Below, one piece after another: positions 15,031 through 28,008 of a DNA stretch of 64,000 nucleotides. This DNA is from Ruminobacter sp. GTDB taxonomy: Bacteria > Pseudomonadota > Gammaproteobacteria > Enterobacterales > Succinivibrionaceae. Numbering within the stretch: position 1 is the stretch's first letter; each line of letters opens with the position of its first letter. The translations under genes and the position numbers were made by a program. Below the pieces are notes generated by a model. It was not told the DNA's origin and ran no database searches. It worked only from the letters and a program-made list of their open reading frames with translations. Where the stretch lies: the NCBI GenBank assembly GCA_017940385.1, contig JAGAYS010000009.1, positions 89,263 to 153,262 on the forward strand, read 5' to 3'.

Positions 15031-15118
15031 TGTGCACTAGTCGGCCCCCGCGTATCCTAACGGGCTTTGCGGAGGCTATTTTTTATAACTTACATATTAG
15101 GAGTTTATAGTGGCCCGT
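15031..15118 (+). promoter_or_regulatory. S4-binding pseudoknot leader of the alpha operon (Alpha_RBS type)
   Basis: The leader contains GTATCCTAACGGGCTTT, very like the E. coli alpha leader as I recall it. ACGGGC (15060-15065) is complementary to GCCCGT (15113-15118) just inside rpsM, across the AGGAG Shine-Dalgarno sequence and GTG start, as in the E. coli pseudoknot. GCCCCCGC and GCGGAGGC form the flanking stem with one mismatch. In E. coli, ribosomal protein S4 traps this structure and represses the operon. Confidence 0.8.
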
Positions 15119-15466
15119 ATAGCTGGTATTAACGTTCCTGATCAGAAGCATGCTGTTATTGCACTTCAGTACATCTACGGTATCGGTGCTACCACCGCTA
15201 AGAAGATTTGTGCTGATGCTCAGATTAGCGAAGACGTTAAAATTAAAGATTTAGATGAATCTGTATTAGATAAAGTTCGTGAACAGGTTGCTAAGTACAC
15301 TGTTGAAGGTGACCTTCGTCGTGAAATTACTTTAAACATTAAGCGTCTTATGGATCTTGGTTGTTACCGTGGTCTTCGTCATCGTAAAGGCTTACCAGTA
15401 AATGGTCAGCGTACTAAGACTAATGCTCGTACTCGCAAGGGTCCGCGCAAGGCAATTAAGAAGTAA
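15110..15466 (+). CDS. rpsM: 30S ribosomal protein S13
   Basis: 118 aa, the same as E. coli, and starting with GTG as in E. coli. S13 contacts the P-site tRNA and the 50S subunit. [20 protein letters not shown] and the C-terminal [20 protein letters not shown] are diagnostic. The start codon is part of the S4 pseudoknot, so translation is probably feedback-controlled. Confidence 0.98.
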
Positions 15467-15480
15467 GCGAGGTTAATATA

Positions 15481-15882
15481 ATGGTTAAAGCATCTCACAG
15501 CACTAATGCTCGTGCTCGTAAGCGCGTAAAGAAGCAGGTAGCAGATGGCGTAGCTCATATTCACGCTTCTTTTAACAATACAATTATTACTATTACTGAC
15601 CGTCAGGGTAACGCTCTTTCATGGGCTACTTCTGGTGGTTCTGGTTTCCGTGGTTCCCGTAAGTCCACTCCATATGCTGCTCAGGTAGCAGCTGAACGTG
15701 CTGGTGAAGCAGCCAAGGAATACGGCGTTAAGAATCTTGAAGTAAACGTAAAGGGCCCAGGTCCTGGTCGCGAATCTTCAATTCGTGCTCTCAATGCTAT
15801 TGGTTATAAGATTACCAATATCACTGATGTAACCCCAATTCCACACAACGGCTGTCGTCCACCGAAGAAGCGTCGTGTGTAG
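15481..15882 (+). CDS. rpsK: 30S ribosomal protein S11
   Basis: 133 aa (129 in E. coli). S11 lies on the 30S platform. Signature blocks are [19 protein letters not shown] and the C-terminal [17 protein letters not shown]. It starts 14 bp after rpsM. Confidence 0.98.
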
Positions 15883-15910
15883 TACCTTCTTTGCATAATG
15901 GAGTATTAAA

Positions 15911-16534
15911 ATGGCAAGATATATTGGACCATCTATTAAATTAAGCCGTAGAGAAGGTACCGACCTTTTCCTCAAGTCAGGTGTTAAGGCTTTTGCTGCT
16001 CGTGGCGAAAGATCAAGAAAGCTTCCTGGTCAGCATTGGGAAAACAGACCTCGTACTTCTGAATACGGTCTTCAGTTACGTGAAAAGCAGAAAGTTCGTC
16101 GTATTTACGGTGTTTTAGAACGTCAGTTCAGAAACTACTACAAGAAGGCTTCTCGCTTAAACGGTAACACTGGTGAAAACCTTCTTAAGCTTCTTGAATC
16201 CCGTCTTGATAACGTAGTTTACAGAATGGGTTTTGGTTCTACCAGAGCTGAAGCAAGACAGCTTGTTAGCCACAAGGCTATCATGGTTGACGGTAAGGTT
16301 GTAAACATCCCTTCATTCCAGGTTTCTGCAGGTTCAGAAATTGTTATCCGTGAAAAGGCTAAGAATCAGGAACGTATTAAGGTTGCTCTTGATTTAGCTA
16401 AGACCAGCGAACCAATCAGCTGGGTTGAAGTAGACGCTGATAACATGAAGGGTAAGTATGTACGCGTTCCAGAACGTTCAGATTTACCTGCTGATATTCA
16501 GGAACAGCTTATCATCGAACTTTACTCTAAGTAA
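15911..16534 (+). CDS. rpsD: 30S ribosomal protein S4
   Basis: 207 aa (206 in E. coli). S4 nucleates 30S assembly and is the expected repressor of this operon through the rpsM leader. The S4 RNA-binding domain is seen at [20 protein letters not shown] near residue 97 and [19 protein letters not shown]. The N-terminus lacks a zinc cluster. Confidence 0.98.
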
Positions 16535-16560: not shown

Positions 16561-17562
16561 TTGGGCTCTGTAAAAGACTTTTTAAAACCAAGACAGGTTG
16601 CAATAGAACCAGTTGCTCCGAACCATGCGAACGTAGTTCTCGAACCTTTGGAACGTGGTTTTGGCAATACATTGGGTCAGGCTTTGCGTCGTTGTCTATT
16701 AATGTCTGTTCCTGGTTGTGCAATTACCGATGTAATCATCGATGGTGTTGCGCATGAATATAGTGCAAAGTCAGATATTCAGGAAGATGTTCTTGAACTG
16801 TTATTGAACGTTAAGGGCATAGCAGTAAATATATTAGATGATGCAGAAAATGAAGTCGATATAGAATTGTCCAAGTCTGGAGCCGGTCCCGTCTGCGCAG
16901 GCGATATCCTCAGTGACAAGGTAAACATTTTCAATAAGGATCATGTGCTTTGTCATCTTAAGGATTCTAAATCTAACATTCAGATGAAAATGAAGGTTGT
17001 GCGCAACGTTGGTTTTTTACCTGCTAATTTACAGGGAAGAAAGCCAGGCTTTGATGAAGACAACAACATTATGTTAGACGCAAGTTTCAGTCCCGTTAAA
17101 TATTTATCTTATGAAGTTGATTCAGCACGTGTTGAACAGAGAACAGAATTGGATAAATTGGTGCTTGATATTGTAACTAACGGTGTGTTAGATCCAGAAC
17201 AGGCTATTCATTTAGGTGCAAGTATCCTTCGTGAACAACTATATTCTTTTGTGGATTTAGATGCTGTTAAGACAGTAAGCCCTGTAGAGCAGACTCATGT
17301 TCCTGCTCCGGATCCGGTACTTCTCAAGTCCGTTGATGATCTCGAGTTAACAGTTCGTTCTGCTAACTGCTTAAAGGCTGAAAGTATACAGTATATTGGT
17401 GACTTGGTTCAGCGTACTGAAGTTGAGCTTTTAAAGACTCCGAACCTCGGTAGAAAATCTCTTACCGAAATTAAGGACGTTCTTGCTCAGCGTGGCCTGT
17501 CCTTAGGTATGCGTCTTGATAACTGGCCTCCTGCTGAGTTATCTCAAGGTTCTAAGTCATAA
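16561..17562 (+). CDS. rpoA: RNA polymerase alpha subunit, copy 1 (operon copy)
   Basis: 333 aa (329 in E. coli) with a TTG start behind GAGGG at a 7-base spacing, giving the expected M-GSV-DFLKPR N-terminus. Alpha dimerises to nucleate polymerase assembly. It sits between rpsD and rplQ, as in E. coli. The normally invariant block that is [16 protein letters not shown] in E. coli reads [16 protein letters not shown] here, although Arg45 and Leu48 (E. coli numbering, from memory) remain. E80, K86 and VEQRTELDK are kept, while Val173 is Leu. The C-terminal domain keeps [11 protein letters not shown] and [12 protein letters not shown] for DNA binding. A second divergent alpha gene lies at 18145. 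Confidence 0.96.
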
Positions 17563-17589
17563 CAACATTTATTTTATAAGGAAGATATC

Positions 17590-17979
17590 ATGCGTCATCG
17601 TATGAGCGGTCGTCAGTTGAACCGCAATAGCAGCAGTCGTGCTGCATTATTCCGTGCTTTAGCTGTAGCCTTATTCAGAGAAGAAACTATTAAGACTACT
17701 TTACCTAAGGCAAAGGAATTACGTCGTGTTGCTGAACGTCTTATCACTATTGCTAAGGTAGACAGTGTTGCTAATCGTCGTTTAGTATTTGCACGTACCC
17801 GCGATAGAGATATCGTTACCAAGCTTTTCAACGACATTGGTAAGCGTTGTCTCGAACGTAATGGTGGTTACACCCGCATTTTAAAGTGTGGTTTACGTCC
17901 AGGTGACATGACTCAGATGGCTTACATCAGCTTAGTTGATCAGAAGCCTGCTGAAGTTGCTGAAGCTGCAGAAGCTTAA
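17590..17979 (+). CDS. rplQ: 50S ribosomal protein L17
   Basis: 129 aa (127 in E. coli). L17 is near the tunnel exit. [20 protein letters not shown] and [18 protein letters not shown] are diagnostic. It is the last gene of the alpha operon and is followed by a terminator. Confidence 0.97.
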
Positions 17980-18001
17980 ATTACTGTTTAAGTAATAAAA
18001 T

Positions 18002-18028
18002 AGACCTCGTGAAAGCGAGGTCTTTTTA
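18002..18028 (+). terminator. Rho-independent terminator after rplQ
   Basis: AGACCTCG and CGAGGTCT form a perfect 8-bp stem with a 6-base loop and a T-run. It separates the alpha operon from the second rpoA. Confidence 0.87.
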
Positions 18029-18040
18029 TCTTTTTTTAGC

Positions 18041-18068
18041 TTGACTTTTATTATGCACTGTATATAAT
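18041..18068 (+). promoter_or_regulatory. Promoter of the second rpoA
   Basis: TTGACT (18041-18046) and TATAAT (18063-18068) have a 16-base spacer, immediately after the rplQ terminator. The predicted start near 18075 leaves a leader of about 70 nt. Confidence 0.75.
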
Positions 18069-18144
18069 AAAACGATCATTTTTTGCTTTTGGCAATTGTT
18101 AAATTTTATACAGATTGTATATTCTGTCAAATGAGGAATCAAAC

Positions 18145-19209
18145 TTGAACTTCTCAACTGATACTTTTAGACCGCAGCAGGCTAATATTGAAAAAATCTC
18201 CCAGACTCAATCAATTATTAGACTTGAACCGTTTGAACAAAATTTCGGTCTTACTTTAGGTAACGCCTTAAGAAGAATATTATTATCATCTATGCCTGGT
18301 TGTGCTATCAATGCCGTAAAGATTAGGGGTGTTGATCATGAATATACTACCAAGGAAGGCTTACAGGAAGATATTCTGGTGTTACTTCTCAATCTCAAGA
18401 AGATTGCTGTAGAGATCGAAAACACCACCATGAATGAAGCTGTGCTTTCTTTACATGTGAATGATCCTGAAATTTCTTCTGAAGACACACATTCTTTTAA
18501 GAGTGATTATGTTGGTCCAATCACCGCCGGTGATATCTATTGTCCAACCGGTGTCAGAATTTTGAACCCTGAACTTGAGATCTGTCATATTACACATCGT
18601 TCAGTACCATTCATCATGGAAATTTATGTAGACAGAGGCAGAGGTTTTGACAGAGCAGATTTACGTTCAGCTAACCATACCGATGATCACAGGGATCATG
18701 GTGAAGGCAGATTGCTTGTCGATGCTACCTACAGCCCTGTCAAGAACGTGGCTTATAAAGTAGAACCATACGAAAACAATGAAGGCAGACCGCTTGAAAG
18801 TCTCGTAATAAGCCTCGAAACCGACGGTACCATTACCCCTGAAGATTCTCTTAAGCATGCTGCAACAATTTTCCATGAACAGCTTGATGCATTTATTAAC
18901 ATCAGCTCCTTCAGTGAACCTGTTGTTGAAGAAGATAATGAGCCAAAGATTAATCCACAGCTTCTTAAGCCTGTTGAGGAACTTGAACTTACCGTTCGTT
19001 CTGCAAACTGTCTCAAGGCTGAAGGCATTAAGCTCATTGGTGACCTTGTTCAGCGCACTGAAGTTGAACTGTTGAGAACTCCAAATCTCGGTAAGAAGTC
19101 TCTCTCAGAAATCAAGGATGTTCTTTCACGTGAAGGTCTTTCACTCGGTATGCGTATCGAGAACTGGCCAGAGGCTGAAATTGAGCCTGAAGTTAAGTAC
19201 AGACTCTAA
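18145..19209 (+). CDS. RNA polymerase alpha subunit, copy 2 (divergent paralogue)
   Basis: 354 aa from the TTG at 18145, chosen because GAGGAA lies 6 bases upstream; an in-frame TTG at 18115 lacks a Shine-Dalgarno sequence. The canonical [16 protein letters not shown] block is intact. At positions matching E. coli 80 and 87 it has V and K instead of E and G, and the VEQRTDLDK stretch is replaced by an unrelated [11 protein letters not shown] stretch. It carries extra segments around residues 95-120 ([13 protein letters not shown]) and a His/Asp-rich stretch ([12 protein letters not shown]) before LLVDATYSP. The C-terminal domain keeps [11 protein letters not shown] and [12 protein letters not shown]. 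It has its own promoter and terminator. A 5-codon ATG mini-ORF (18131-18148) overlaps the TTG start. Confidence 0.93.
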
Positions 19210-19227: not shown

Positions 19228-19252
19228 AAAAACCACCTTCGGGTGGTTTTTT
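19228..19252 (+). terminator. Rho-independent terminator after the second rpoA
   Basis: Arms ending in ACCACC and GGTGGT around the stable tetraloop TTCG, with an A-run on the left and six T on the right. Confidence 0.9.
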
Positions 19253-19371: not shown

Positions 19372-21558
19372 ATGAACAAATTTTTGTTATCAACTCTGGC
19401 TCTGGCAGTTTCTGTCGGAGTTTACGGCTGTAACAGCGACAATTCTGTAGGTCAGGGCCCTGTTGCAAAACAGGTTAAGGAACAGGCGACTTTAACAGGT
19501 AAGCTTGACAATAAGCCTGTATATATCTATGTAGATGGTGTAAATGCAGGTTCTTCTAGTGAATTTAAACTTCATGAGAAGAATAATGTTTATAAGGCAT
19601 CTGTTGCACTTGAAAAAGGTACCTATAAGATTAAGCTCGGTGATGCAGGTTTAACCTGTGGCACCACTTTCGGTCCTGATGCTGATACAAAGATTACCTT
19701 TGGTACCGCAACACAAATGTCAAACTGTGCAAAGGGAGAATTCGAACTTAGGGTTCTGCTTCCAAGCACTTATGATTTTACTCTTAACTACACCAAGGAC
19801 ACTCCTACTTTAAGTATCTTAAGAGGTACAAGAAAGGTTGAGGTTAAGCGTCAGCCTCCTGCCGTGGATTGTGACAAGTGGAATGGTGGACCTGTTACTG
19901 CCAACGTTTCTAAGGCGTGGAAGAACGGAACCAAGATCAGAGATGCTTATACCGGACAGACTGCGGTTGTTAAGAACGGAAAGGTTACAATGACACCTGG
20001 TGCTTCAAGTGAAGGTATTCTTCTTCTTGAAGAAGCTAAAGACATAACCACTCCGGCATTCAGCTGGGATAATGCCAATGTTTACTTTATGCTGACCGAC
20101 CGTTTTAATAACGGTGATAAGTCCAATGACCACTCATATGGCAGAAAGTTTGACGGTGAGGACGAAATCGGTACATGGCATGGCGGTGACTTCAGGGGAA
20201 TAACTCAAAAGCTTGATTATCTTAAGAAGCTCGGTGTTAATGCTATCTGGGTAACTCCTATTGTCGAACAGTCCCACGGTTTCATCGGCGGCGGTGTTGA
20301 ACAGTCATTCCCGTTCTACGCTTATCACGGTTACTGGGCAATGGACTTCACCAAGATTGATAAGAACCTCGGATCTGAAGCCGATTTTCAGGAATTTATC
20401 GATGAAGCTCATAAGAGAGGCATAAGGGTTCTTGTTGACGTTGTAATGAATCATGGCGGTCACGCAACTCTTAAGGACCTTCAGGATTTGAATCTTCCTG
20501 AACTCGTTAATAAGAAGGATCAGCTCCCTGATGATTATTCAGATTTTAAGCCTGTTGGTATGTTTGGTACCTGGAGCAGTGTAAATGCCTTCATAAATAC
20601 AAAGTCAAAGGATTGGAACAAGTGGTGGGGTCCTGATTGGGCCAGAGCCGGTTTACCTGGATATCCTGAACCAGGTGTCGGTGATGCCGACATGGCTGTA
20701 GGTGGTCTTCCTGACTTCCTTACCGAAAGCACCAAGACTGTATCCCTTCCATATTTCTTAAAGAACAAGAAGGACACCAATGCAGTAGATTTACCTAATG
20801 CAACAATTGTGGATTATCTTGTGAGCTGGCATACCTACTATGTCAGAAAATTTGGTGTGGACGGTTTCAGATGCGATACCGTAAAGCATGTTGATCCTAT
20901 TGCATGGAAGAAGCTTAATGAGTCTGCAGTTAAGGCATTAAAGGAATGGAAGGCGGAAAATCCTACCAAGAAGCTTGATGACTTACCTTTCTTTATGGTC
21001 GGTGAAGTATGGGATCACGGTGTAGCCAGAGATTTATGGTATGACAACGGATTCTCAAGCATTATCAATTTCGATTATCAGAAAGAATCAATGACCTATA
21101 CCCAGTGTATGAAGACTGCCGATGATACTTACTCCAAGTACGCAAGAATGATTAGCAGTGATCCTGGATTTAATGCCATGTCTTATATTTCATCACACGA
21201 TACAAAACTTTTCTTCGGTGATTATAAGGACTTTGCACTTCAGAAGCGTGCTGCTAACAGCTTCATGATGCTTCCTGGTCAGGTTCAGATTTATTACGGT
21301 GATGAGTCAGGTCGTGATCTGATGAAGGATGGCGGTTATATCGATCAGTCAGTACGTTCAGACATGAACTGGGGTGACCTCAGTAAACCTGAGTACAAGG
21401 AGCTTGTTGATCACTGGTCAATTCTCGGTAATTTCCGTCTGAATCATCCTTCAGTGGCAAGCGGTAAGCATACCACCATCTCCATGTCTCCGTATACATT
21501 CATGCGTAACAACGGCAAGGATAAAGTTGTTATCGTATCAGCGGGCAGAAGAGGTTAG
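19372..21558 (+). CDS. malS: MalS-type alpha-amylase, probable lipoprotein
   Basis: 728 aa glycoside hydrolase family 13 enzyme that hydrolyses alpha-1,4 links in maltodextrins outside the cytoplasm. The N-terminal hydrophobic segment ends in VYGC (Cys20), a plausible lipobox, so it is probably membrane-anchored, unlike soluble periplasmic E. coli MalS. An N-terminal accessory domain spans about residues 35-225. The catalytic barrel shows DVVMNHGG, GFRCDTVKH (nucleophile Asp), GEVWDHG (acid/base Glu) and ISSHDT. The strings FTDRF-like LTDRFNNG, DHSYGR, SDMNW and the C-terminal VVIVSAGRRG match the E. coli MalS layout, so the protein is complete. It is flanked by terminators and is probably monocistronic. 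Confidence 0.9.
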   Translation: MNKFLLSTLALAVSVGVYGCNSDNSVGQGPVAKQVKEQATLTGKLDNKPVYIYVDGVNAGSSSEFKLHEKNNVYKASVALEKGTYKIKLGDAGLTCGTTFGPDADTKITFGTATQMSNCAKGEFELRVLLPSTYDFTLNYTKDTPTLSILRGTRKVEVKRQPPAVDCDKWNGGPVTANVSKAWKNGTKIRDAYTGQTAVVKNGKVTMTPGASSEGILLLEEAKDITTPAFSWDNANVYFMLTDRFNNGDKSNDHSYGRKFDGEDEIGTWHGGDFRGITQKLDYLKKLGVNAIWVTPIVEQSHGFIGGGVEQSFPFYAYHGYWAMDFTKIDKNLGSEADFQEFIDEAHKRGIRVLVDVVMNHGGHATLKDLQDLNLPELVNKKDQLPDDYSDFKPVGMFGTWSSVNAFINTKSKDWNKWWGPDWARAGLPGYPEPGVGDADMAVGGLPDFLTESTKTVSLPYFLKNKKDTNAVDLPNATIVDYLVSWHTYYVRKFGVDGFRCDTVKHVDPIAWKKLNESAVKALKEWKAENPTKKLDDLPFFMVGEVWDHGVARDLWYDNGFSSIINFDYQKESMTYTQCMKTADDTYSKYARMISSDPGFNAMSYISSHDTKLFFGDYKDFALQKRAANSFMMLPGQVQIYYGDESGRDLMKDGGYIDQSVRSDMNWGDLSKPEYKELVDHWSILGNFRLNHPSVASGKHTTISMSPYTFMRNNGKDKVVIVSAGRRG

Positions 21559-21730: not shown

Positions 21731-22369
21731 TCAGTTGTTGCCGTGGGTAAGCAGGTGACCCATTCTGTCTTCCTTGGTGTCCAGATAGTTCTCGTTATAC
21801 TTGTTACGTCCCACTTCAATAGCTACCCGTTCCACAACGTTGATGTTGTATTTTTTCATTTCCGCTACCTTAAGCGGGTTGTTAGTCATGAGTTTAATTG
21901 ATTTGACTTTCAGATAGTTAAACATCTCGGCACATATTTCATAATGCCTTGCATCAGCCGGAAAACCCAGATGCAGATTTGCATCAACGGTATCAAGCCC
22001 TTTATCCTGAAGGTGATATGCCTTGATCTTATTAAAAAGACCTATGCCTCGGCCTTCCTGTCTTACGTACAGAAGAACGCCTCTCTTTTCCTTTGCAATC
22101 TGTTTCATTGCAGCTTCAAGCTGGAAACCGCAGTCGCATTTAAGACTGAACATTGTGTCTCCGGTCAGACATTCTGAATGAATTCTGGCCAGTACAGGTT
22201 CATCGGTGGTTATGTCTCCCATGTAAACTGCTGCGTGTTCTTTATTCTGTTCGTCCTTAAAGGCGATAATATTAAATACTCCAAACGGGGTAGGCAGGTT
22301 TGCACTTTCCGTAGCATCAGTGATGTGGTATCCGGTCTGTTCCCTGATTGATTCGTTGTTTTCAGTCAT
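21731..22369 (-). CDS. ribA: GTP cyclohydrolase II
   Basis: 212 aa enzyme opening GTP to start riboflavin synthesis. The zinc site is the C...CDC set in [20 protein letters not shown], and the catalytic and GTP-binding block is [35 protein letters not shown] is the family's C-terminal motif. It lacks a fused RibB domain, so it is the stand-alone type. It is the second gene of a minus-strand pair, 11 bp downstream of a polytopic membrane protein. Its C-terminal ~18 residues extend slightly beyond the E. coli protein. Confidence 0.95.
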
Positions 22370-22380
22370 GGTCTCTTCTT

Positions 22381-24012
22381 TTATTTTGCTTCAAGATATT
22401 GCTGTATTTTTTCATGAACAGCACTCTGGTTTGACAAATCATTACGCTGTTCTTCCGGCAGATTAGAATTTGAGGAATAAAGTTTTTCCAGTTTTGACAA
22501 TATACCATAAAGTTTCGGATTTATACTGAACTGTTCTTTTTCTCTGAGATTGTCAATGCTCTCAGGAATCAGTGCCAGAATGTATGAATCATGTATGGTT
22601 TTGCTTGTTTTAATTGTTGTAAGCTCGTCATATTCAGTCTGTCTTACAAGCGGATTAAAGTAAGCCGGAGTTCTGTACGGGGTAGTTGATTCCGTGTCGT
22701 TTATTTCCTGTCTAATCAGAGGTAAGGAGGCTATTCCGGAAGCAGAGAAAATTATCGTCAGCAAAGGAATAATCCAGGCAAGCTGTCCAACAAGGAAGTT
22801 TGATTTTGTCTGATAGAAGACGGTTCTGTCTTCGTAGTCAACGTCAAAACACCAGCAGTATGAAACAAGTAAAAGAACCATCAGGTATGATTCTTCGAAT
22901 ATATTGGTGTATAGGCCGAAGATCAGTAACGGCATGATGACACAGAAGGAACTTACGGTGTGAGTGTTTCTTGGTGAAAATTTAAAATAGTTTCTGTAGA
23001 TCCATAACAGAGCCGTGAGTAAGGCAAGAAATCCGATGGCTCCGGATCCTATAATGACCCGGGATACGGTGCTGATGTCGGTTTTGAACGGGAGGAAAAG
23101 ATCGTTGTTGACCAGATAATGCAGAATGGTGCTGTTTGCGGTATCGTATCCGGTTCCGATAACCAGATGCGGACTGATTATCTGGGCATAGGTGTCCATT
23201 GAATATTCAGCGAGGTTATGCGTGGTGCTGCTTATGCACGATGAGCATGTTATAACCACTGACAGTATGGATATTACTAAAAGGCTGAACCCGAAAACTG
23301 TTTTCTGTCCCTGCTTTAAGATGACTATGCCTGAAATGAGCGTGGTCAGGAAGGCTGTTGAAATTGTCAGCACTGAGGAACATGTGGATAATTCCAGAAC
23401 CAGCATTACGGCTATGGCTGCCGAAACAACATTGTTGATTTTTCTTATTTTCCCGGATTCACAATCTGAAGAGGCCACAAATATAAGAGCCGTGAGCCCC
23501 CAGATGATTCCTGTCATATGATTTGCGGAAACGGAGAGATATTCGCTGAAATCAGAATTGAAATGTACGAGTAGAAGTTCCAGTGCCGCTCCGGCAGGAA
23601 TCAGCAGAATGAGCAGCTTTTTCAGATTAATGATCCTGTACAGCTGGTAGTAGGCAAAAAATGTCAATCCGAAAAAGAGTGCGCCTACTGCAGGTGTAAA
23701 GGAAGGATTGTTGTGAACGGCATAGTGATATATCGCAGGCACGGAAAATAAAACTGCTGTCAGGGACAGCATTTTGAAAGATGAATTCAGCGTAATTTCC
23801 TTGCGCGCGGCAACACTCCAGAATCCTAAAGCAATTATGCATGAAGCAACTGCAAGGGTGAACAGATTGTTTGAACTGCCAAGCCCCAATGCCGAAGTAG
23901 AACCATCCAGCAGACTGACGTGTGAAAAGAACAGAAAAAATGTCGTTATCAGAGTAATGAACAGGAAATTAATGAGAGTCTTCTGCATTTTGTTTATCCG
24001 TGTATGCTTCAT
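22381..24012 (-). CDS. Polytopic membrane protein, possibly O-antigen ligase/polymerase-like
   Basis: 543 aa with about 11-12 hydrophobic segments in the first 430 residues and a hydrophilic C-terminal tail of about 100 residues. The layout, with short loops, a larger loop before the last membrane pair ([20 protein letters not shown]) and a soluble tail, resembles WaaL/Wzy/PglL-type glycan ligases, but no motif settles it. The ATG at 24012 has no clear ribosome-binding site; an in-frame ATG at 23988 is an alternative start. It is probably co-transcribed with ribA, 11 bp downstream, although no functional link is apparent. Confidence 0.6.
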
Positions 24013-25692: not shown

Positions 25693-28008
25693 ATGGATGA
25701 GAAAAAAATGAGCTATGAGGGAGTTGAACAGCTCCCGTTGGAAAATTTTACGGAGTCCGCATATCTTAACTATGCCATGGCCGTTATCAGGGATCGTGCA
25801 CTGCCACACATAAGTGACGGATTAAAGCCGGTGCAGAGACGTATTATTTACGCCATGGATCGTCTCGGACTCAGCGCCACATCCAAGTTTATGAAGTCGG
25901 CAAGAACCGTGGGTGATGTTTTGGGTAAGTATCATCCGCACGGTGATTCATCCTGTTACGGAGCCATGGTTCTCATGGCACAGGATTTTTCATACCGCTA
26001 TCCGCTCGTGGACGGCCAGGGAAACTGGGGTCATCCGGACGAGCCTAATTCTTTTGCGGCCATGCGTTACACTGAATCCAGACTCTCAAAATTTTCAGAG
26101 GTTCTGCTTTCCGAACTGGGACTCGGGTGTACAGAATATGTGTCAAATTTTGACGGTTCCATGCAGGAACCGAAGTATCTTCCGGCCAGACTTCCTCATA
26201 TTCTCCTAAACGGTACTTCAGGTATTGCCGTAGGTATGGCTACCAATATTCCTCCCCATAACGTAAATGAAGTCACGGCAGCCTGTATTCACATGCTGGA
26301 GAATCCTAAAGCCACTGTAGATGACCTCATGCAGTTTATTAAAGGGCCGGATTATCCGACTGAAGCAGAAATTATTTCCTCACCTTCAGAAATTAAAAAG
26401 ATTTATGAGACCGGGCGCGGCACGGTCAGAATGAGAGCCGTTTACAGGGTGGAAAAAGGGGAGATTATCATAACCGCACTGCCTTATCAGACCAGAGGTG
26501 CTGATATAGTTCAGAAAATTGCGGAGCTTATGAATGCCAAAAAGCTGCCTATGCTCAGCAATATCCGTGATGAAACATCAGATACGTGCAGAATCGTTTT
26601 GGTGCCTAAGTCAAACAGGGTTGATGTGGATAAGATGATGTCTCATCTGTTTGCCCTGCCTAAACTGGATCTTGAAAAGACCTATGCCATAAACATTAAT
26701 ATTCTCGGTCTGAACGGCAATCCTGCAGTAAAGACACTGCCGGAAATCCTGAGCGAATGGCTTGAATTCAGATGCGACACCGTAAGACGCCGCATAACTA
26801 CCAGGCTTGATAAGATAAATGTCAGACTGCATCTTATTGACGGGCTGCTGATTGCATTCCTGAACATTGATGAGGTTATACGCATCATCAGGGAAGAGGA
26901 TAAGCCGAAACAGATTCTGATGGAAAGGTTTAATCTGTCAGATACGCAGGCGGAATACATACTGGAAACAAAACTCCGTCAGCTGGCCAGAATTTCCGAA
27001 ATGGCACTTGTCGGGGAAAAGGAAGATTTGGAAAAACAGAAGAACGAACTCAATGCTCTGCTGTCTTCTCCCGCGAAATTTAAGAATCTTATCAAGAAGG
27101 AACTGAAAGCAACTGCCGCTGAGTATGGTGATGAGCGCAGAAGTCCTATTGTTCAGAGAGAGGTTGCTCAGGTTATTTCTGAAAGGGATCTGACGCCTGC
27201 CGAGCCGGTTACCGTCGTTCTTTCAAAAATGGGATGGATCAGGGCTGCCAAGGGATATCTGGATAATCCTGAATCTCTGTCATACAAACAGGGGGATGAA
27301 TATCTTGATTCCGTGTTCTGCAAGTCAAACATGCCTGCCGTATTTCTTTCAAGCAAAGGGAAGGCCTATACCCTTGACGTAAGCGCCATGCCTTCGGCCC
27401 GCGGCCAGGGTGAGCCGCTTACCAGCAAGCTTGGACTTGAGGCCGGTGAAACCGTTGAAACTGTAATAAGCTCATCGGAAAGCGACTTTTATCTCATCGG
27501 TACTGATGCGGGGTACGGTTTCGTATGCACATTTGCCGACATGCTGAGTTATACCATGAACGGCAAGAGTTTTATAAATCTTACCGAAAATGCCAGGGTT
27601 CTGAAACCTGTCCGCATAGATAACCTTGACAATTCACTCTGTCTTATTGTTTCAAATATCGGTAAGATGCTGGTGTTTAAGGTCAGTGAGCTTCCCCGTC
27701 TTTCAAAAGGCAAGGGAAACAGAATGATTAACATTCCTACCGAAAGAGCCCAGTCCAGAGAAGAGTATGTGGTGGCATATACTGTTCTTACTCCGGATGA
27801 TTCCGCGGTGATACATGCCGGAAAGCGTCATTTGACTGTTACTCCGTCAGAGATAGACACGTACCAGAATACCAGGGGACGCAGGGGAATTACTCTTCCG
27901 AGAGGCCTGCAGAAGGTGAGCTACATTGAGAAGATTCAGACAAAAAATCAGACTGAATCCGAACCACAGAAATCACCTGATGATATCGTAAAAGATTCAA
28001 ATATTTAA
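25693..28008 (+). CDS. parC: DNA topoisomerase IV subunit A
   Basis: 771 aa (752 in E. coli). With ParE it decatenates daughter chromosomes. The winged-helix/tower part shows [15 protein letters not shown] and the active-site Tyr126 in AAMRYTESR; the C-terminal half carries the beta-propeller. In the quinolone-resistance segment, [12 protein letters not shown], Ser86 matches E. coli Ser80, but residue 90 is Gly where E. coli has Glu84. An alternative ATG five codons in would give MSYEG. It is followed 18 bp later by plsC, as in E. coli; parE is not in the window. Confidence 0.97.

Follow-up and report, generated by a model that had tools for sequence, protein, structure and literature searches.

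The two rpoA genes of the Ruminobacter locus

The window, a stretch of 64,000 nucleotides of Ruminobacter sp. DNA, contains an alpha operon with two rpoA genes, rpoA1 and rpoA2, on either side of rplQ. Residue positions follow E. coli numbering, and the late clade named in the list is defined in the next section. The locus comprises the following features:

15036..15142, + strand: Rfam Alpha_RBS alpha-operon leader, 5' of rpsM (RF00140, 75.5 bits against a gathering threshold of 38)
15110..16534, + strand: rpsM, rpsK and rpsD, the 5' genes of the alpha operon (open reading frames; same order in 43 two-copy loci)
16561..17562, + strand: rpoA1, TTG start, at the usual rpoA position; proposed beta-prime-side alpha (open reading frame, domains, A1 clade)
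16687..16692, + strand: R44-R45 codons of rpoA1, present in the window and lost in 35/35 late-clade A1 genes
17125..17154, + strand: block 190-199 of rpoA1, kept; adjoins a beta-prime site
17590..17979, + strand: rplQ, flanked by rpoA1 and rpoA2 (open reading frame)
18002..18033, + strand: terminator-like hairpin and T tract in the rplQ/rpoA2 gap (consensus match only, equalled by shuffled sequences: 4 found, mean 3.9)
18041..18068, + strand: promoter-like TTGACT-16-TATAAT, 5' of rpoA2 (11/12, consensus match only)
18145..19209, + strand: rpoA2, TTG start; proposed beta-side alpha (open reading frame, domains, A2 clade)
18271..18276, + strand: R44-R45 codons of rpoA2, kept in 43/43 A2 genes
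18769..18798, + strand: block 190-199, replaced in rpoA2 (alignment with E. coli and relatives)
19228..19251, + strand: terminator-like hairpin 3' of rpoA2 (consensus match only)

As the preliminary description of this locus had stated, both rpoA genes are complete. They are intact open reading frames, and their products, which are 48% identical over the matched region, exceed the NCBI TIGR02027 equivalog cut-off of 227.8 bits (RpoA1 302.3, RpoA2 282.6 bits) as well as the cut-off of NCBIfam NF003513, and contain the three Pfam alpha domains above cut-off (PF01193, PF01000 and PF03118, i.e. the N-terminal dimerization domain, the insert and the C-terminal domain, CTD). A third rpoA match was absent from the genome of the window (93.86% complete) in a search at an E-value of 0.001. 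The start of rpoA2 is most likely the TTG at 18145 rather than position 18115, since it aligns with the starts of relatives; a GAGG is found 5' of it at 18133-18136. This start region (18130-18147) is strikingly similar between genera, reading approximately GAGGGT..AACC-TTG in most late-clade genomes and GAGGAATCAAAC-TTG in the window, and is perhaps a control element. The promoter pattern, which is our own, also matches in the rplQ-rpoA2 gap of the other three Ruminobacter genomes and of genomes G021 and G055. Further 3' of rpoA2, the window contains genes for an alpha-amylase (19372-21558), ribA (21731-22369) and parC (25693-28008), and a 543-residue open reading frame at 22381-24012 that has no NCBIfam match.

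Distribution and conservation of the gene pair

Two rpoA matches were found in 44 of the 56 Succinivibrionaceae genomes searched, one match in seven and none in four; in the last genome, G035 (59% complete), rpoA is present in three pieces. The order rpsM-rpsK-rpsD-rpoA1-rplQ-rpoA2 is shared by 43/43 contiguous two-copy loci from 12 of the 14 genera searched, including that of a one-contig genome (G030), and the 44th two-copy genome (G046) has its copies on two contigs. Among the two-copy genomes are ones assigned to Succinimonas amylolytica DSM 2873, Succinatimonas hippei YIT 12066, Succinivibrio dextrinosolvens DSM 3072 and Anaerobiospirillum succiniciproducens DSM 6400. Six of the single-match genomes belong to the genera g12 and g13 and have the order rpsD-rpoA-rplQ throughout; in the seventh (G044), the gene is cut at a contig end.

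In a tree of 92 alpha sequences, the RpoA1 proteins (A1) and the RpoA2 proteins (A2) form one clade each (both 100/99), and so do the single copies of g12 and g13 (100/100). Likewise, in a joined rpoB and rpoC tree of 30 genomes, the two-alpha genomes form one clade (SH-aLRT 100) that lies next to g12 and g13. The rpoB and rpoC genes were taken from 20 family genomes, out of 46 that gave a match, together with 10 outgroups and E. coli; the joined tree omits G022, whose rpoC is partial. The simplest reading of these trees is one duplication of rpoA. The genera g12 and g13 may have lost one copy afterwards or may have branched off before the duplication. With 63 sequences, trees constrained to group A1 or A2 with the g12/g13 single copies were not rejected (p-AU 0.57 and 0.75); each of them outscored the unconstrained quick tree, in which A1 and A2 were joined at a support of 74.

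In the following, we distinguish an early clade of 8 genomes (Ruminobacter, including the window, Succinimonas, WG-1 and G021) and a late clade of 35 genomes from 8 genera. The partial genes of G035, G044 and G046 are left out of every per-site count. The A2 gene of G045, which has a broken start, was counted in the first alignment; CTD and footprint counts omit its A2, and the Francisella-site test described below omits both of its rows.

Both genes are under purifying selection. Across seven species pairs, dN/dS is 0.04-0.13 for A1 and, with several dS values above 1 and hence saturated, 0.02-0.09 for A2, and it resembles that of rpsD and rplQ. The CTD residues R265, N268, C269, G296, K298, S299 and E302, which we take to be the DNA-contact positions of the E. 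coli alpha CTD, are identical in all A1 (8/8 early, 35/35 late) and all A2 (8/8 and 34/34) sequences. These observations bear on the reading that RpoA2, or RpoA1, is decaying or has acquired a role outside RNA polymerase. Although synonymous divergence is higher for A2 in six of the seven species pairs and the A2 of the window carries an insertion near E. coli residues 103-109, we regard this reading as scarcely credible, given that A2 has been retained in 12 genera at a dN/dS below 0.1, with its domains and the listed CTD positions intact. Found in 12 genera, forming its own clade and being under purifying selection, RpoA2 is not the recent, rare or decaying copy that the preliminary description had set beforehand as its refutation.

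A proposed division of the beta and beta-prime faces

In E. coli, as described in PMC3294249, the substitution R45A prevents and L48A partly prevents the formation of the alpha2-beta complex, and binding of beta-prime is hindered by substitutions at positions 86 and 173 and by insertions at positions 180 and 200. In the late clade, the two alphas have undergone reciprocal losses. On the beta side, R44 and R45 are kept in 35/35 A2 and 0/35 A1 sequences; H66, E67, Y68 (together HEY) and D77 are each kept in 35/35 A2 sequences, and in 0, 2, 3 and 0 of the 35 A1 sequences, respectively. Conversely, A1 keeps 9-10 of the ten residues 190-199, of which A2 keeps 0-1. Position 200 counts against the proposed orientation of A1 on beta-prime, because an insertion there hinders beta-prime binding, yet K200 is a lysine in only 1/35 late-clade A1 sequences and an arginine in the other 34.

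The early clade shares the second loss: A1 keeps 8-10 of the residues 190-199 and A2 one or three. R45 is lost in exactly one of the two alphas in 35/35 late-clade genomes and in none of the eight early-clade genomes, including the window, and R182 is lost in early-clade A1 as well as in A2. In the clade of Ruminobacter, A2 thus appears to have gone further in the division than A1. Comparison of the window pair at 124 conserved N-terminal sites shows 31 that only A1 keeps (including A190-T196, D199 and K200) and 20 that only A2 keeps (including N41, I46, S49, E72, G73 and R150). To this extent, the complementary loss claimed in the preliminary description holds within the window itself, but it does not extend to R45, L48 and K86, which are kept in both proteins and do not carry the case as markers of this pair. 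As judged from these residues, the division in the window is incomplete, and the case for it rests on block 190-199 and on the relatives.

The individual letters reported in the preliminary description are all present: a changed beta-facing block, E80, K86, VEQRTELDK and a leucine at position 173 in RpoA1, and V80, K87 and V173 together with the absence of VEQRTDLDK in RpoA2. Some of them do not bear the weight placed on them. V173 had been named among the residues that contact beta-prime; the V173L change lies in A1 and thus speaks against A1 on beta-prime, and in the late clade the valine is kept in 0/35 A1 and 1/35 A2 sequences. E80 is no better as a marker, as it is kept by alpha1 of Francisella, the counterpart of A2 (see below), and is a valine in five of six single-copy genes of the family. 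We therefore dropped V173, K86, L48 and E80 as orientation markers, and likewise HEY taken alone, which is altered in extra rpoA copies of family f218 that keep R44-R45. More generally, position 80 is V in 5/6 g12/g13 single alphas, V, I or L in A2 and E in 28/35 ordinary alphas.

We also discarded the broad published footprints (residues 30-55/65-75 and 175-185/195-210) as a means of separating the paralogues. Separation was weak in the late clade (24 of 234 shifts as high, Fisher p 0.087) and lacked significance in the early clade (82 of 234, p 0.64). The argument for a division is one of individual residues, not of whole surfaces.

The dimer interface points to the same pairing. F35, T38 and L39 of one alpha chain contact I46, S50 and Q227 of the other (PMC3294249), so that a homodimer contains this contact two times. 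The first three residues are kept in 24, 35 and 26 of the 35 late-clade A1 sequences and in 0, 0 and 9 of the A2 sequences; A2 keeps the second three in 35, 34 and 35 of 35 sequences and A1 in 19, 1 and 5, with I46 being the least changed. With one half of the contact in A1 and the other in A2, only a mixed dimer would retain one contact in a largely ancestral form.

For the early clade, a graded state has to be weighed, in which heterodimers prevail and A1 still pairs with itself and binds beta, yielding a minor A1-only polymerase. A minor alpha1-only polymerase has been suggested for Francisella, whose alpha1 shows low activity on its own (PMC3294249), and early-clade A1 retains R44, R45, L48, S50 and Q227 in 8/8 genomes and HEY in most. 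On the other hand, a change of I46 to serine blocks dimerization of E. coli alpha (PMC3294249), and I46 is replaced by cysteine or valine in all eight early-clade A1 sequences; N41, S49 and G73 are also changed in 8/8 and R150 in 7/8. We consider such a state unlikely, if far from negligible. It is in the clade of Ruminobacter that the word 'obligate', used for the heterodimer in the preliminary description, is least secure, given that A1 keeps R45 there.

Francisella as a yardstick

A heterodimer of two alphas has been demonstrated biochemically in Francisella (PMC3294249), and structures containing alpha1 and alpha2 are available (PDB 6wmp, 6wmr and 6wmt). Our family f72 corresponds to Francisella, as both alphas of its genome G448 match the chains of 6wmp. 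In the four f72 genomes, alpha1 retains both R44-R45 and HEY and lacks 190-199 (4/4); alpha2 has KQ in place of R44-R45, has lost HEY and keeps ARV..(R/K)TDLD. These are the two reciprocal losses of the Succinivibrionaceae, with A2 corresponding to alpha1 and A1 to alpha2, and the likeness to the Francisella polymerase proposed in the preliminary description is thereby borne out. Together with the late-clade losses, it is also the main support for the proposed placement of RpoA2 on beta and RpoA1 on beta-prime. The Francisella study discusses R45, K86, V173, V180 and K200; in the sections covered here, we found no mention of the loss of the whole 190-199 block, the alignment being part of its supplement (PMC3294249).

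The sites that separate the two Francisella alphas (29 alpha1-only, 26 alpha2-only) can serve as a yardstick for the family. They separate A1 from A2 both in the late clade, where D over 34 genomes is 0.572 and 5 of 234 shifts reach this value (Fisher p 0.0073), and in the window pair, where D is 0.488 and 3 of 234 shifts do so (p 0.0084). The p-values are indicative only, being one-sided, treating sites as independent and referring to a site list drawn up after inspection of the alignment. Alpha1-only and alpha2-only sites predict A2-only and A1-only sites, respectively: the ratio of A2-only to A1-only is 12:3 versus 4:10 in the late clade and 7:4 versus 1:11 in the window pair. The sites with the opposite direction are L47, L133 and R182 on the one side and T57, L83, T222 and L228 on the other in the late clade, and V26, S69, L133 and L234 on the one side and T222 on the other in the window.

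The two systems appear to have originated separately, since f72 belongs to another order of the same class, and most of the other genomes sampled from the order and the class carry a single rpoA. They also differ in arrangement. In Francisella, RpoA1 is encoded in the ribosomal operon and RpoA2 elsewhere (PMC3294249, legend of Figure 4), whereas in the Succinivibrionaceae both genes lie around rplQ, and the copy at the rpoA site of the operon encodes, unlike in Francisella, the proposed beta-prime-side alpha. Furthermore, a clade with an incomplete division survives in the Succinivibrionaceae. We thus regard the polymerase of the family as a second case, probably of independent origin, of the kind known from Francisella rather than as a new kind.

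Duplicated rpoA genes elsewhere

Outside the family, second rpoA genes are rare. Among 148 genomes of the order, the only others with two matches were four f11/g24 genomes, and four genomes had none. In the f11/g24 genomes, a second alpha operon lies elsewhere in the genome, and both faces are intact in one protein. This second operon recalls that of Psychromonas ingrahamii (PMC3294249); the second rpoA of G159 is more diverged. In the class, 15 of 370 genomes had more than one rpoA match, and two full-length copies were found only in the genome of the window, the four f72 genomes and G382, where the second copy ends at a contig edge. In the phylum (396 genomes), the insert domain was matched more than once only in the genome of the window and in three genomes of f218/g429. 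In each of the four extra f218 copies, one protein combines R44-R45 with most of 190-199, and H66-E67-Y68 is altered. In f218/g429, three of five genomes have a normal rpoA and, in addition, such extra copies, as diverged genes or as pieces, with R44-R45 and most of 190-199 kept where visible. A search of viral sequences with rpoA2 gave no relative.

The duplicates of f218/g429 and f11/g24, in keeping both faces, show that duplication alone does not bring about a reciprocal loss of R44-R45 and 190-199. They therefore also speak against two separate polymerases, A1-A1 and A2-A2, that would serve different promoters. The promoter-like sequence of rpoA2, a consensus match, would suit such a specialization, and with the listed DNA-contact positions kept in both CTDs, each alpha could contact DNA and activators. 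However, R45 is absent from 35/35 late-clade A1 sequences and A2 keeps at most three of the ten residues 190-199, so that no late-clade homodimer would have both faces. We judge this arrangement to be very improbable.

Among 1055 genomes, a published survey named Francisella, Chloroflexus, Streptomyces avermitilis, Psychromonas ingrahamii and Leptospira borgpetersenii and anticipated further cases (PMC3294249). Chloroflexus and S. avermitilis have two rpoA genes, and the Chloroflexus pair is described as free of drastic substitutions in the dimer and beta/beta-prime regions (PMC3294249). In the literature searched, which covers few subscription journals, we found no description of a two-alpha polymerase in the Succinivibrionaceae.

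A proposed oriented alpha heterodimer

We propose that the rpoA duplication probably gave rise to an oriented A1/A2 heterodimer, with A2 on beta and A1 on beta-prime, and that the division is incomplete in the clade of the window. The ancestor of 12 of the 14 sampled genera would have duplicated rpoA beside rplQ, and the copies would have split the roles that, in ordinary RNA polymerase, fall at random to one or the other of two identical alphas. RpoA2 would have retained the beta-binding face (R44-R45, H66-E67-Y68) and given up the 190-199 block beside a beta-prime site; RpoA1 would have retained 190-199 and, in 8 genera, given up the beta-binding face. The assembled polymerase would accordingly have the composition A1-A2-beta-beta-prime, with beta resting on A2 and beta-prime on A1. 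The ordinary homodimer, as in E. coli, shares the domains and the listed CTD positions with A1 and A2, but it is encoded by one gene with an ATG start and combines both faces in one protein.

If each alpha is needed once per enzyme and not twice, as in the homodimer, this could explain why TTG or GTG has replaced ATG as the start of both genes. Each of the 34 ordinary rpoA genes compared starts with ATG (6 from the family and 28 from the order, 8 of the latter from the four genomes with two alpha operons). By contrast, rpoA1 starts with TTG in 8/8 early-clade genomes and with GTG in 34/35 and ATG in 1/35 late-clade genomes, and of the 42 readable rpoA2 genes, 41 start with TTG and 1 with GTG. 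These counts were obtained within a narrower range and with preference for ATG; a looser first pick gave 32 GTG, 10 TTG and 1 ATG for A1. The weaker start codons fit a halved dose, and we infer that the dose of each alpha is lowered. Codon adaptation in the genome of the window, which is lower for A1 (0.50) and A2 (0.56) than for rpoB (0.60) and rpoC (0.62), speaks neither for nor against a heterodimer.

The family would thus provide a second, independent split alpha pair, spread over 12 genera that include Ruminobacter and Succinivibrio. With one clade half way and another complete, it allows the order in which a homodimer loses its faces to be studied, and the recurring losses would provide a sequence signature of alpha orientation beyond what Francisella alone could establish. 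On a broader level, we lean towards the view that bacterial RNA polymerase, with two unlike alphas, has been permanently polarized at least twice by the same two losses (R44-R45/HEY in one copy and 190-199 in the other), that this family preserves two stages of the process, that its two genes weakened their start codons as each chain came to be required a single time per enzyme, and that the losses reveal the orientation from the sequence by itself. Such enzymes would serve, outside Francisella, for studying the effects of a fixed alpha orientation on activation and for comparison with RPB3/RPB11. In the alpha-like heterodimers of archaea and eukaryotes, Rpo3/Rpo11 and RPB3/RPB11, two unlike alpha-type chains form the assembly platform, and the large one binds the beta-like subunit (PMC3294249); the Succinivibrionaceae differ from these in that both chains are of full length with CTDs and were duplicated within one bacterial family.

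Changes in beta and beta-prime

Eight sites in beta and three in beta-prime are invariant in single-alpha genomes and altered in 90% or more of the two-alpha genomes. In addition, beta has an insertion of 133-147 residues after E. coli residue 412 in 16/16 two-alpha genomes (L187-L202; contig C22 of G000 for the genome of the window), at a site with 0-1 residue in the four single-alpha family genomes, the 10 outgroups and E. coli. This insertion has the same distribution as the rpoA duplication. Two of the insertions had no Pfam match above cut-off, and one had no credible match in the PDB. The beta-prime subunit of G055 (WG-1; L190) has a further insertion of 160 residues, located after E. 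coli position 502, and the rpoB of this genome is broken into two frames. Lastly, beta-prime contains 50-60 extra residues after E. coli residue 1072 in five early-clade genomes (rpoC, L187-L191) and in none of the ten late-clade genomes aligned.
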